Below, piece after piece: positions 26,332 through 30,877 of a DNA stretch of 64,000 bases. This DNA is from Dethiobacter alkaliphilus AHT 1 (GTDB lineage Bacteria; Bacillota; Dethiobacteria; Dethiobacterales; Dethiobacteraceae): contig NZ_ACJM01000004.1 of assembly GCF_000174415.1 (NCBI RefSeq), forward strand, positions 124,001-188,000. The letters run 5' to 3'. Position 1 is the stretch's first letter. Each line of letters begins with the position of its first letter. Both the position numbers and the translations under genes were made by a program. The notes beneath the pieces were generated by a model that ran no database searches, was not told the origin of the DNA, and saw nothing but the letters and a program-made list of their open reading frames with translations.

Positions 26332-26599
26332 AGGTATAAAACTAATATAGAGTATAAAATTTTTTACCTCCAAAGTCAAGCCCTTCGACTAATTTCCAAA
26401 ACCCACCCTTTCTGATTATAACCTTTAGTTATAGCTATACAACATAGTTATGACATTCACAAACAAAACCCCTGTATTTATTGGCTTTATCCCCTCCTCC
26501 GGGACAAAGCAGCCCGTTTTGGGCCCCCATTTCAGGCAGGATGTTTATGATAGGCGTGACTAATATATTAGTAATCAAATATGTAAGGGGGTAACTACA
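26332..26599. promoter_or_regulatory. Divergent control region between tRNA-Gly and the Sec cytochrome gene
   Basis: 268 bases with starts on both sides. A perfect 14-bp palindrome, ACTAATATATTAGT (26559-26572), lies 27 bases before the GTG start of the cytochrome gene and could be an operator covering the -10/+1 region. A TAATAT inside it could act as a -10, but no convincing -35 was found. AAGGGGG at about 26585-26591 is the ribosome binding site. Confidence 0.5.
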
Positions 26600-27400
26600 G
26601 TGGCTGAAGAAAAAGGATTGTCAAGAAGAACATTGCTAAGGGGGGCAGGGTACTCACTGGCCGGCCTCACCCTGGCCGGTACAGTTGGTATGCTGCTGCC
26701 GGGATGCGGCACAGATGAAGGGACTGCTGCAGAAAACGGGGAGGTTGCAGCTGCTAAGTGGCCATTAAATTATGCTAAACTGGATCCAGATGAAGCGGCG
26801 CAAAGAGGGTACGATGCCTATTGGGAGGACGGCTGAGGCTACGGTGTAGCCCAAGGTCTTTTGGGCTATTTGGCTGAAGAAGTGGGTTATCCGTTTAACC
26901 AGATTCCCGCCGAAACATTTGGTTCTTACCGAGGCGGCGTGGAAGGCTGGGGATCAATCTGTGGAGCACTGGTTCCTGCCATCTCCGTCATTAATCTGGT
27001 GGTAGACAAAGAAGACAGAGCTTCCCTGGTTAACGAACTGATGGCCTGGTACAAGGAATTTCCCTTCCCCGAATTCCAACCGGCAGGGCTGGATTTGCCC
27101 GGCGTCCCCATTAACTCCAGCCTGTGCCATGTTTCCGTGACCAAATGGATGGAGGAAACAGGGTATGGCCCCAGAAGCTCTCCGGAGCGCGGCGAAAGGT
27201 GTGCCGGCCTCACTGCAGATGTAAGCAAATTCACCGCCGCCATGCTCAACAAATACTTCGAAGAAGGCTCCTATACCGGACAATACGCAGTATCCCCCGC
27301 AACAGGCCAGTGTATGGCCTGTCACGAAGAAAATGTTAAACCGTATGCTCACGGTAAGGAAGACTGCATAGAATGTCACGGTGACCCGCACGAGGATTAA
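26600..27400 (+). CDS. Predicted selenoprotein: Tat-exported split-Soret-type diheme cytochrome c lipoprotein (TGA at 26834-26836 read as Sec)
   Basis: Read through one TGA, the frame gives 266 residues. GTG at 26600 follows AAGGGGG by eight bases. Residues 8-15 (SRRTLLRG) form a twin-arginine signal and LLPGC puts a lipidation Cys at 36. The body has Sec79, Cys121 (in GWGSICGALVPA), Cys176 (SSLCHVSV) and Cys201 (ERCAGL), the spacing of the four conserved Cys of the C_GCAxxG_C_C family. CMACH (238-242) and CIECH (256-260) are two heme c sites. This combination is that of split-Soret cytochrome c from sulfate reducers, where four Cys are thought to hold an Fe-S cluster. Homology continues across the TGA (GYGVAQGLLGYLAEEVGYP follows it), and a SECIS-like hairpin follows. 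A sequencing error or nonsense mutation is the alternative. It is the only plus-strand gene in the window. selA/selB/selC are not in the window. Confidence 0.85.
26846..26869 (+). promoter_or_regulatory. Bacterial SECIS-like hairpin
   Basis: The stem GUAGCCCAA / UUGGGCUAU (9 pairs, one G-U at the base) has a six-base loop GGUCUU (26855-26860). It begins 9 bases after the TGA, and the loop begins 18 bases after it. Bacterial SECIS elements put a loop with G in its first two positions 16-37 bases after the UGA; the E. coli fdhF loop likewise contains GGUCU. An alternative shorter pairing GGCTAC / GTAGCC right after the TGA competes with the base of this stem. Confidence 0.8.
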
Positions 27401-27410
27401 GGTACATGCA

Positions 27411-27441
27411 AAAACCACGGGTATATATACCCGTGGTTTTT
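27411..27441. terminator. Bidirectional terminator between the Sec cytochrome gene and the tRNA-Leu cluster
   Basis: AAAACCACGGGTATA / TATACCCGTGGTTTT forms a perfect long stem with A-run and T-run flanks on both strands. It lies 10 bases after the cytochrome stop codon and 18 after the 3' end of the convergent tRNA-Leu. Confidence 0.92.
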
Positions 27442-27901: not shown

Positions 27902-29218
27902 TTAACTGCTAATGGCTCTAAGGCGCAGGCTGATTTCCTGCTCACAGTGCGGGCAGAGCAGCACTCCTGCGGGAACCTGTTTTGCCGCAGTTTCTTTTTC
28001 GGGCGCTTTGGTCAGAACAGCCAACAGCACACCTAACACACTGAGACCGGCTGAAATAGCAAAGGCTATCCCATACGTTCCTGTCATATCACGGACCAAG
28101 CCTCCGATTAGGGGACCAAAAACGCCACCGGCTCCCCAGGCTGTAAAGACAAGCCCGTAATTAACACCGAGATTCTTCAGGCCAAAATAGTCTGCCGTCA
28201 GCGCAGGGAACAGGCTGAGCATGCCCCCGAAAGCAAAGGCAACAAAAGCTGTTCCGGTAAACAAAGTCAGCGCTGTTTGGAACTGGGCAAAGAACGCAAA
28301 GCAAACAACCTGGATCAGGAAAATAATAACCAGTGTCATTCTACGATCCAGCTTATCCGATATTACACCGCAGCCGACCCGTCCCAGACAATTAAACACC
28401 GCGTACACCGAGATAAGGGCGAAAGCCGCCCCGTCAGAGAGCGCAGCCTGTTCTAAGCCAATATCCCTTAACTGGCCGATAATCATCAGCCCGGCAAATG
28501 TGCCAAAACAAAACATAATCCATAAACCATAAAACTGAGGTGTCCGAACTACCTGCTTCCAGTCAAAATCCAGACCGGAACTTTTATTCTGTTTTATTAC
28601 TTTGATAGCTTTGAATTTATCTACAGGTGGTGCCGGCACATAATCTTCCGGCGGATTAGAGATAAACTGTGCAAAAGTAAAAATAGCAGCACAAAAACCC
28701 AAACCCAGAATAATCATGGTCATTTCTATACCAAACCTGGCCAGCAAAACCTGAGTCAGGGGGGCTACATAAATACCCGCCAGTCCAAAGCCACTAACCA
28801 CGATTCCGGCAATCAGACCACGCTTATGCGGTCCAAACCACTTCAGGGCGGCAGGAGTTGCCGCTGCATAGCCAAAACCCATTGCCGAACCAAAAACCAC
28901 ACCGAAAAATATCGAAAGACCTACAACGGATAAAAACAAGCCTGACAACACAAAACCTATTCCTGTAAGAATGGCAGAAGCTAATATTATTTTTTTGGGT
29001 CCCATACGGTCCTGCAGGCGACCACCGGGAACCATCAGCAATGCAAATAGTGCACAAGCAACCATATAAGGAATTTGGGATTGCGTTGCGGTCCACCCCA
29101 AGGCACGCAGTTCATTGGCAAAAGCTCCCCAGGAATAAAGCACACCTAACGCCAGGTTTACACCCAGCCCCGCAAACGTAACAATCCATCCTTTTTTCGA
29201 ACCTATAACTGTACCCAT
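27902..29218 (-). CDS. OFA-family MFS transporter (oxalate/formate-antiporter type), copy 1
   Basis: 438-residue permease with 12 predicted helices of the oxalate:formate antiporter family in the major facilitator superfamily. Visible are GVLYSWGAFANELRALGWTATQSQIPY at the N-terminus, the GGRLQDRMGPKK loop between helices 2 and 3, and KWFGPHKRGLIAGIVVSGFGLAG. Family members carry small carboxylates such as oxalate, formate, pyruvate or lactate; the substrate here is not predictable. The C-terminal tail carries a CPHC pair, unusual for an MFS protein. A paralogue lies 363 bases upstream. ATG at 29218 has GAGGGAGG before it. Confidence 0.88.
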   Translation of the reverse strand: MGTVIGSKKGWIVTFAGLGVNLALGVLYSWGAFANELRALGWTATQSQIPYMVACALFALLMVPGGRLQDRMGPKKIILASAILTGIGFVLSGLFLSVVGLSIFFGVVFGSAMGFGYAAATPAALKWFGPHKRGLIAGIVVSGFGLAGIYVAPLTQVLLARFGIEMTMIILGLGFCAAIFTFAQFISNPPEDYVPAPPVDKFKAIKVIKQNKSSGLDFDWKQVVRTPQFYGLWIMFCFGTFAGLMIIGQLRDIGLEQAALSDGAAFALISVYAVFNCLGRVGCGVISDKLDRRMTLVIIFLIQVVCFAFFAQFQTALTLFTGTAFVAFAFGGMLSLFPALTADYFGLKNLGVNYGLVFTAWGAGGVFGPLIGGLVRDMTGTYGIAFAISAGLSVLGVLLAVLTKAPEKETAAKQVPAGVLLCPHCEQEISLRLRAISS

Positions 29219-29419
29219 TTTCCTCCCTCTTTTCTCTAAGCTTACAATAAACTACCGTTCTTTATTTCTACCTACACAACATATACCGCCTCCCCCCTGG
29301 AAAACTGTAATGAATTTTATCTTTTTTCTAAAAATTTCAAATAGTCATTATATTATATACTTTCTATCTTTTGATTTTCCTGCTTTAGCACATAAAAGTT
29401 TTTCCAAAATTCAACAAAC
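29219..29419. other. Leader of the first OFA transporter gene
   Basis: About 200 very AT-rich bases between repeat copy B and the transporter start. On the minus strand several TATAAT-like words occur (around 29350), so a promoter is likely, but I could not fix one pair. GGGGGGAGGCGG lies mid-leader and GAGGGAGG directly before the ATG. Confidence 0.35.
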
Positions 29420-29521
29420 AAGAAATCGTCGCTTATTCGGTTTCCTCAGCGCACGCTTTCAGTGCCGGTTTCCAATGCAGTTTTGCTGGCTGCAAAGCGT
29501 TATAATTTCCGGCATAAAAAA
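29420..29521. repeat. Structured intergenic repeat, copy B
   Basis: Second copy of the roughly 100-base element. Pairing: CGCT (29430-29433) with AGCG (29448-29451), TGCCGG (29463-29468) with CCGGCA (29509-29514), and the inner hairpin GTTTTGC / GCAAAGC (29480-29486 and 29492-29498) with one G-U pair in the plus-strand RNA. Stem sequences differ from the other copies while pairing is kept. It lies between the terminator of OFA copy 2 and the leader of OFA copy 1. Confidence 0.75.
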
Positions 29522-29557
29522 AATAATGCCGTGCGAATGATTCACACGACATTATTT
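29515..29557 (-). terminator. Terminator of the second OFA transporter gene
   Basis: Outer stem AAATAATG / CATTATTT (29521-29528 and 29550-29557) continues into CGTG / CACG. On the minus strand it is followed by a run of eight T. It begins 25 bases after the stop codon. Confidence 0.88.
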
Positions 29558-29581
29558 GATACTTGAGCTCTGCTACTAGAT

Positions 29582-30877
29582 TTAGCCTGCCTTGCCGCCG
29601 GCCTCGAAAATATTCTCTCCACAGGCAGGACAGACACTGGATGAGGAAACCAAAACCTTTCTCTCCGATGGTGCTTTGGTGGTGAGCGCCAGCAAAATCC
29701 CTACTGCACTGAGAGCCACAGCAACGATGTAGCTGATATTATATGTCCCGGTAACATCACGGACCACGCCGCCCAGCAACGGACCGAATACACCGCCGGC
29801 ACCCCAGGCGGTAAACACCAGGCCATAGTTCAGGCCTAAGTTTTTAACACCAAAATAGTCGCAGGTGATGGAGGGAAACAGGCTGAGCATCCCGCCGTAG
29901 GCGAAGGCCACCACAGCTGTTCCGGCAAACAGTGTAAAGGGTGTGGTAAAACCGGAAAAGAAGCTGAAAGTGAAAACCTGAATCATAAAAATGGAAACCA
30001 CCGTCATTCTCCTGTCCAGCTTATCGGAGATAAACCCACAGCAAATACGGCCAAGGGAATTACAGACAGCGAAGAATACCACCAACGCTGTAGCCCACTG
30101 CGGAGTCAGGGACGCCTGCTCAATACCGATACTTCTCAGCTGACCGATAATCAACAGCCCGGCTAAAGCACCAAAACAGAACATGAGCCACAGGCTGTAA
30201 AACTGAGGAGTACGGACCATCTCTTTCCATTCATAATTTGCTTCGGCACAGGTTGTTTTCTTTGTGCCCTTTACCAGGGTAGGCGGCTGTTGCGGCACGT
30301 AGTCTGCGGGAGGGTTGGCCATAAAACGGGAAAACACAAATAAGGCAATACTAAAAATGGCTCCCAGGATATAAAAGGTAGAAGTAAGTCCGAATTGCTC
30401 AATCAGGTATCCGGCCAGCGGAGCGGCATAAACGCTGGCTATGCCAAAACCGCTTACCACAATCCCGGAAATCAGGCCACGCTTATGTGCGCCAAACCAC
30501 TTGATGGCCGTAGGAGTGGTGGTAGCATAACCAAAACCGATGGCGGCTCCAAACAGCATACCAAAGAAAATTGATAACCCGGCTACAGTCAGTATCAAGC
30601 CGGACATCAGAAAACCTATGGCCGTTAAAACGGCGGCAGTTAAGATTACCGGCTTAGGGCCCAACTTGTCCTGCAATCTTCCTCCAGGCACCATTAACAG
30701 GGCAAACATAGCACAGGCCACCATGTACGGAATCTGCGTTTGGGTGGCGGTCCAACCATAATTGGACTGCAGGGCCTCGGCAAACATTCCCCAGGAATAA
30801 AGCACTCCCAGACTGAGGTTAGACCCGAAACCGGCAAAAGCAACGACCCAACCCTTTTTCTGATTCAACTCTGACAT
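29582..30877 (-). CDS. OFA-family MFS transporter (oxalate/formate-antiporter type), copy 2
   Basis: 431-residue paralogue of the neighbouring transporter, with the same 12-helix plan: GVLYSWGMFAEALQSNYGWTATQTQ, GGRLQDKLGPKP and KWFGAHKRGLISGIVVSGFG. The tail again has a paired-Cys motif, CPACGENIF, as if half of a zinc ribbon were kept in both copies. A probable substrate is a small monocarboxylate or dicarboxylate. It has its own promoter-like site and terminator, so the two copies are separate transcription units. Confidence 0.88.
   Translation of the reverse strand: MSELNQKKGWVVAFAGFGSNLSLGVLYSWGMFAEALQSNYGWTATQTQIPYMVACAMFALLMVPGGRLQDKLGPKPVILTAAVLTAIGFLMSGLILTVAGLSIFFGMLFGAAIGFGYATTTPTAIKWFGAHKRGLISGIVVSGFGIASVYAAPLAGYLIEQFGLTSTFYILGAIFSIALFVFSRFMANPPADYVPQQPPTLVKGTKKTTCAEANYEWKEMVRTPQFYSLWLMFCFGALAGLLIIGQLRSIGIEQASLTPQWATALVVFFAVCNSLGRICCGFISDKLDRRMTVVSIFMIQVFTFSFFSGFTTPFTLFAGTAVVAFAYGGMLSLFPSITCDYFGVKNLGLNYGLVFTAWGAGGVFGPLLGGVVRDVTGTYNISYIVAVALSAVGILLALTTKAPSERKVLVSSSSVCPACGENIFEAGGKAG

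Follow-up and report, generated by a model that had tools for sequence, protein, structure and literature searches.

The split-Soret cytochrome c of Desulfovibrio desulfuricans ATCC 27774 (PDB 1h21; NCBIfam NF047622), whose PDB title reports a novel iron centre, shares a common predicted fold, two C-terminal CxxCH motifs and four aligned cysteine positions with the protein described here. The two differ at the first of these positions, which is cysteine in the Desulfovibrio protein and selenocysteine (Sec) in ours, and ours additionally carries a Tat/lipobox-like leader and belongs to a Bacillota host. In genetic screens of Desulfovibrio alaskensis, split-Soret cytochromes were without phenotype (PMC4215793). 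The C-GCAxxG-C-C selenoproteins of forms 1 and 2 (PF09719; TIGR01909, '(seleno)protein') provide the second point of comparison. PF09719 is an already known selenoprotein family, and C-GCAxxG-C-C proteins are listed among the predicted selenoproteins in two reviews (PMC13188914, PMC9312934), which include no heme-bearing or split-Soret form among them. Sec at or near a metal centre, replacing a cysteine metal ligand, occurs in FdhA, [NiFeSe] hydrogenase, HdrA and CopZ-like (2Fe-2S) selenoproteins. None of these is a diheme c-type cytochrome, and the site considered here would be extracytoplasmic. Our literature search found no report of a Sec-containing diheme split-Soret cytochrome, although the Haft 2023/2025 selenoprotein papers and the 2003 split-Soret paper may mention one. 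Neither did it find a report of the SECIS element, the multiple Sec/Cys switches, the His177 pattern or the YeeE-TusA-TatC link described below, any of which the same three papers may also mention.

The window, which is the whole stretch of 64,000 nucleotides analysed (contig 4, 124001-188000, of a genome of 3,112,004 bases in 34 contigs), contained a reading frame from a GTG at 26600 to a TAA at 27398-27400, interrupted by a single in-frame TGA at codon 79. A sequence-only reading of this DNA had proposed that the TGA at 26834 links two halves of one protein, and homology was indeed found to span both sides of it. The features of the locus are as follows.

26585..26592, plus strand: Shine-Dalgarno-like AAGGGGGT, 7 nt upstream of the GTG, read directly.
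26600..27400, plus strand: complete gene, opening with GTG and closing with TAA at 27398-27400, for a Sec-containing diheme cytochrome of split-Soret type, 266 residues long.
26621..26638, plus strand: twin-arginine (Tat) motif SRRTLL; a Tat-like motif is also present in most homologues.
26696..26707, plus strand: lipobox-like LPGC, in which C36 is a candidate for lipid attachment; a Pro at -2 is unusual, and relatives have LSGC, LAGC or LTGC.
26834..26836, plus strand: TGA, selenocysteine codon 79, first position of the Cys/Sec tetrad by homologue alignment.
26846..26869, plus strand: bacterial SECIS hairpin with a 10-bp stem, conserved 6-bp core at 26849-26854 / 26861-26866.
26960..26962, plus strand: Cys121, second tetrad cysteine, invariant in the homologue alignment.
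27125..27127, plus strand: Cys176, third tetrad cysteine, invariant in the homologue alignment.
27128..27130, plus strand: His177, probable distal heme ligand beside the tetrad, a role suggested by its correlation with the heme tail in homologues.
27200..27202, plus strand: Cys201, fourth tetrad cysteine, invariant in the homologue alignment.
27311..27325, plus strand: heme c site 1, CMACH (residues 238-242), read from the translation.
27365..27379, plus strand: heme c site 2, CIECH (residues 256-260), read from the translation.
27411..27440, plus strand: inverted repeat AAAACCACGGGTATATATACCCGTGGTTTT with a T-rich run at its end, probable intrinsic terminator, read directly.

Most of what had been read from the letters was borne out. 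The good Shine-Dalgarno sequence was located upstream of the start, both CxxCH motifs lay in the C-terminal tail, and the predicted Tat-exported lipoprotein agreed with the presence of SRRTLL and the lipobox-like LPGC. The terminator said to close the gene is visible as an inverted repeat, though it was missing from the output of a simple terminator scan. The cytochrome gene had also been called the only plus-strand gene in 64 kb, which holds for ORFs of at least 150 aa, since 51 of the 52 such ORFs were on the minus strand and it was the sole exception. The tRNA genes flanking it were on the minus strand as well, and it stood alone between them. Six of the 52 window ORFs ended with TGA as a normal stop; the genetic code is therefore not reassigned. 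Two adjacent, similar transporters resembling the MFS oxalate/formate antiporter family adjoined the cytochrome gene on the minus strand (27902-30877), and relatives showed no sign of linkage between such a pair and the cytochrome.

The joined protein matched 1h21 with E-values of 2.9e-37 (sequence) and 9.8e-67 (profile) at 35% identity. An AlphaFold2 model (pLDDT 87, pTM 0.81, 49 sequences) superposed on 1h21 with a TM score of 0.80 by target and an rmsd of 1.9 A over 217 columns, and 1h21 was its only PDB structural match at E <= 0.001. As modelled, the gene product has the split-Soret cytochrome c fold. In the 1h21 alignment, U79 faced the Cys of GCGFG, the first tetrad cysteine, in line with the proposal that Sec79 corresponds to the first of four conserved cysteines. 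The match to NF047622 (E 2.5e-53, 181.3 bits over 8-261) was below the equivalog cut-off of 400 bits, and the protein is therefore a homologue rather than an equivalog by the NCBI rule. It scored above the Pfam gathering score for PF09719 (46.7 versus 27 bits) and below the NCBI cut-off for TIGR01909 (26.4 versus 47.4 bits). The C_GCAxxG_C_C-type domain assigned earlier was thus recovered as PF09719, while the pattern itself was followed only loosely (U79; SICGALV; LCH; RCAG). No relatives were found in plasmids or in IMG/VR viral contigs, and PHROGs gave no family. Several heme-less Sec relatives with a Tat signal (L016, L052-L055, L058) may be of the C-GCAxxG-C-C selenoprotein kind.

The codon-79 column was occupied by Sec in 29 and by Cys in 37 of 66 homologue rows, a few of them near-identical and two partial, and by no other residue, which answers the question of whether homologues have Cys or Sec at this position. 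Cys121, Cys176 and Cys201 were never replaced in the rows covering them, so that all four tetrad positions were invariant as Cys or Sec, heme-less relatives included. A search of GTDB contigs gave nine homologue loci, seven with TGA at the same codon. Within the order, a homologue was present in 9/20 genomes and the TGA form in eight of those nine, including the genome of the window; within the phylum, a homologue was present in 52/398 genomes. On a maximum-likelihood tree of 64 sequences, seven changes between Sec and Cys were needed, and the same number when only starred branches were counted. As judged from this tree, Sec and Cys have been swapped at least seven times at the first tetrad position. 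The genome itself encodes a Cys-type split-Soret paralogue (contig 5, 167369-168133; L037/L108) with a Tat signal and two CxxCH motifs, divergent from tatC. In another genome (L045/L109; G019 C13), a Sec form is directly followed by a Cys form that the end of the contig truncates, forming a natural Sec/Cys tandem pair. A tandem array of four split-Soret paralogues was found elsewhere (L085/L155; G228 C64:74000-79800), with a single CxxCH in three of them and none in one.

The earlier reading had not considered a SECIS. Since Rfam contained no family matching the one in the window, the element was tested by alignment. The window hairpin, GUAGCCCAAG-GUCU-UUUGGGCUAU, had a computed folding energy of -12.9 kcal/mol (z -2.8). 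Counted from the T of the TGA, its apical GGU lay at offset 21. This offset is identical in E. coli fdhF and in fdhA of the same genome, which has a UGA and a SECIS with the loop GGUCU. The six-pair core was present at the same offset in 20 Sec relatives, with GG on the 5' side of the loop and compensatory exchanges from G-C to C-G and from A-U to G-C or U-A. In these relatives the stem was 97.5% paired, with 13 double-sided changes compared with 3.2 in shuffles, whereas the same region in 20 Cys relatives was 60% paired without an excess of double-sided changes. A synonymous-codon fold test gave a mean z of -1.77 for Sec and -0.04 for Cys forms (p ~5e-8, with homologues that are not independent). 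In a close pair, the hairpin of the Sec form (L045, GCCGAA-GGTCTT-TTCGGC) has decayed in the Cys form (L046, GCTGAT-GCGCTT-TTGGGT). In a further Sec group (L077, L083, L084) the hairpin was a different one, with an AGUU loop farther downstream, as expected if Sec arose separately there.

The genome contained all four genes of the Sec machinery that the earlier reading had named as a check, and none of the three refuting outcomes listed there was encountered. The genes selA, selB and selD were clustered on contig 1 (107068-111301), and the tRNA-Sec gene (selC, 70 bits) at 86930 had the anticodon TCA (UCA). In-frame TGA codons were also present in selD and fdhA. Among the other genomes with a homologue, selA was above the cut-off in 47/53. 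The remaining six were G186, G189, G276, G319, G388 and G402. G186, a MAG of 90% completeness whose selD contains a UGA, was the only Sec-form genome among them; in the other five, every match listed was a Cys form.

If the UGA were an ordinary stop, the locus would be a recent pseudogene or two separate genes. Standard gene finders would close the first half of the gene at the TGA, and the Cys paralogue elsewhere in the genome could take over. We nevertheless consider an ordinary stop scarcely credible: 28 further homologue rows had TGA at this codon, the downstream half was fully conserved together with both heme sites, the SECIS covaried, and the TGA was the sole internal stop. A sequencing error was ruled out, since these 28 rows are from independent assemblies. 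A suppressor tRNA inserting cysteine or tryptophan at the UGA would find a possible candidate on contig 3, where another tRNA has a body resembling that of tRNA-Sec. Its anticodon, GCA, reads UGC/UGU and not UGA, other genes are terminated by TGA, and a conserved SECIS would be pointless; such suppression therefore seems highly improbable. The contig 3 gene (124334-124423; L002:1501-1590) scored 58.5 bits to RF01852, above the cut-off, and would encode a tRNA-Sec-like tRNA-Cys. On the sequence evidence, it is essentially certain that codon 79 encodes selenocysteine. The organism, an anaerobe of soda-lake type, almost certainly makes an exported two-heme electron-transfer protein with Sec in place of the first of four cysteines that would hold an iron-sulfur cluster.

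Two readings of the role of Sec79 were weighed, as a ligand of an iron-sulfur cluster and as a catalytic selenol. Most Sec residues are catalytic. A selenol paired with a cysteine could act on sulfane sulfur or peroxide; the tetrad would then form disulfide/selenosulfide pairs, and the hemes would give or take electrons. The name of PF09719, 'putative redox-active protein', the sulfur-handling TusA and YeeE in the module of the relatives (see below) and the fact that, of the four cysteines, it is invariably the same one that gives way to Sec, as expected for a chemically special position, are all in its favour. However, four invariant Cys/Sec positions are unlike a two-residue active site, and the one family member studied contains, to judge from its PDB title, an iron centre. 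Heme c is normally attached outside, after the unfolded chain has been exported, and a Tat motif is thus unusual on a c-type cytochrome. Here the motif (present in 19/23 Sec heme forms) suggests that a cofactor is loaded inside the cytoplasm, which also counts against the selenol. We regard catalysis by Sec79 as possible but rather doubtful, and prefer the cluster-ligand reading, which the earlier reading had itself put forward as conjecture, as the fairly probable one. The 2003 split-Soret paper reportedly described an Fe-S EPR signal, and the iron centre is said to be missing from the crystal (1h21). There would be precedent for Fe-S ligation by Sec, since HdrA and the (2Fe-2S) CopZ-like protein are on selenoprotein lists. 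The cluster-ligand reading is strengthened by the Tat signal and by the way His177 tracks with the heme tail: this residue was present in 52/52 alignable heme forms and in 1/12 heme-less forms, the one exception being a copy inside a tandem array of heme forms. The simplest reading of this pattern is that His177 is probably the distal ligand of a heme, and its place directly after Cys176 would put the tetrad beside that heme. Of the family hallmarks, bis-His hemes stacked across a dimer and a split Soret band, the correlation suggests the distal ligand alone.

Genes for YeeE/YedE (PF04143, as one gene or two halves), TusA, LysR and TatC were recurrent neighbours of the relatives, for Sec and Cys forms alike. 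YeeE was near 16/58 of the loci; among loci flanked on each side by 3.5 kb or more, it was near 8/21 of the Sec and 5/25 of the Cys ones, one locus being counted under both labels. The chance expectation, based on three PF04143 places in a 3.1-Mb genome, was ~1%. The module was absent beside the cytochrome gene of the window. The neighbourhoods of the relatives share a PF04143 YeeE/YedE and a TusA-family gene with the YeeE/TsuA-YeeD/TsuB thiosulfate uptake, SoxT and YedE selenium transport systems; the papers covered here describe no split-Soret cytochrome or dedicated TatC with them. YeeE-YeeD imports and decomposes thiosulfate (PMC11073785), and a YedE-like protein serves selenium transport in Methanococcus according to a work cited in PMC11582611. 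Because of this transporter, and because selA was present in all module-bearing genomes examined, a selenium role for the module is conceivable. The neighbours of the relatives suggest that thiosulfate, sulfane sulfur or selenium undergoes redox chemistry outside the cytoplasm.

The sequences establish that codon 79 specifies Sec, and likewise the homology, the SECIS, the invariance of the tetrad and the genes found near relatives; what we infer is the ligation of cluster and hemes, the substrate and the direction of electron flow. In the mechanism we favour, UGA79 is decoded as Sec by SelB and tRNA-Sec, guided by the hairpin beginning 9 nt behind the codon. With a Tat signal and a probable lipid anchor, the N-terminal helical domain probably folds and takes up a cofactor in the cytoplasm before Tat exports the protein, which then stays attached to the membrane on its outer side. 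Two hemes c would be added to the C-terminal tail; ResB, for heme c maturation, is present in the genome. The split-Soret family is reported to have an iron-sulfur centre, which Sec79, Cys121, Cys176 and Cys201 would most likely hold here; selenium would tune how labile or reactive the centre is, or its potential. Electrons would move between this centre and the hemes, one of them probably ligated by His177, and would be used outside the membrane in redox reactions of thiosulfate, of sulfane sulfur or of some selenium compound, before or during import. As a whole, a Sec-containing split-Soret protein with a cluster, hemes and a redox role in sulfur or selenium handling is in our judgement a reasonably probable explanation. 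More tentatively, with somewhat less than even confidence, the exported, Sec-ligated Fe-S cluster wired to two hemes c could carry electrons for a YeeE-TusA-TatC system that has gone unrecognised, one for redox chemistry of thiosulfate, sulfane sulfur or selenium compounds outside the membrane, with at least seven Cys/Sec swaps and distinct SECIS hairpins inside the coding sequence.

Sec as a cluster ligand is rarely testable, and here the protein is small and its hemes are built-in redox reporters. Natural Cys twins are at hand in the genome's own Cys paralogue and in the close pair L045/L046, together with repeated independent Sec/Cys switches. The import genes for sulfur or selenium and TatC give a functional lead for split-Soret cytochromes and for the heme-less PF09719 selenoproteins. 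The same genome also has a YeeE-TusA-LysR-TatC module without a split-Soret gene (contig 6, 41050-44670 onward; L114:5050-12848). It adjoins a cysteine-synthase-type PLP enzyme (PF00291), ThiS, ThiF, a second TusA and a PF03601 transporter, neighbours that point to sulfur assimilation. The tatC frame of this module matched the first 169 of 208 profile positions, with a further TatC match overlapping in another frame, and the gene may be frameshifted.
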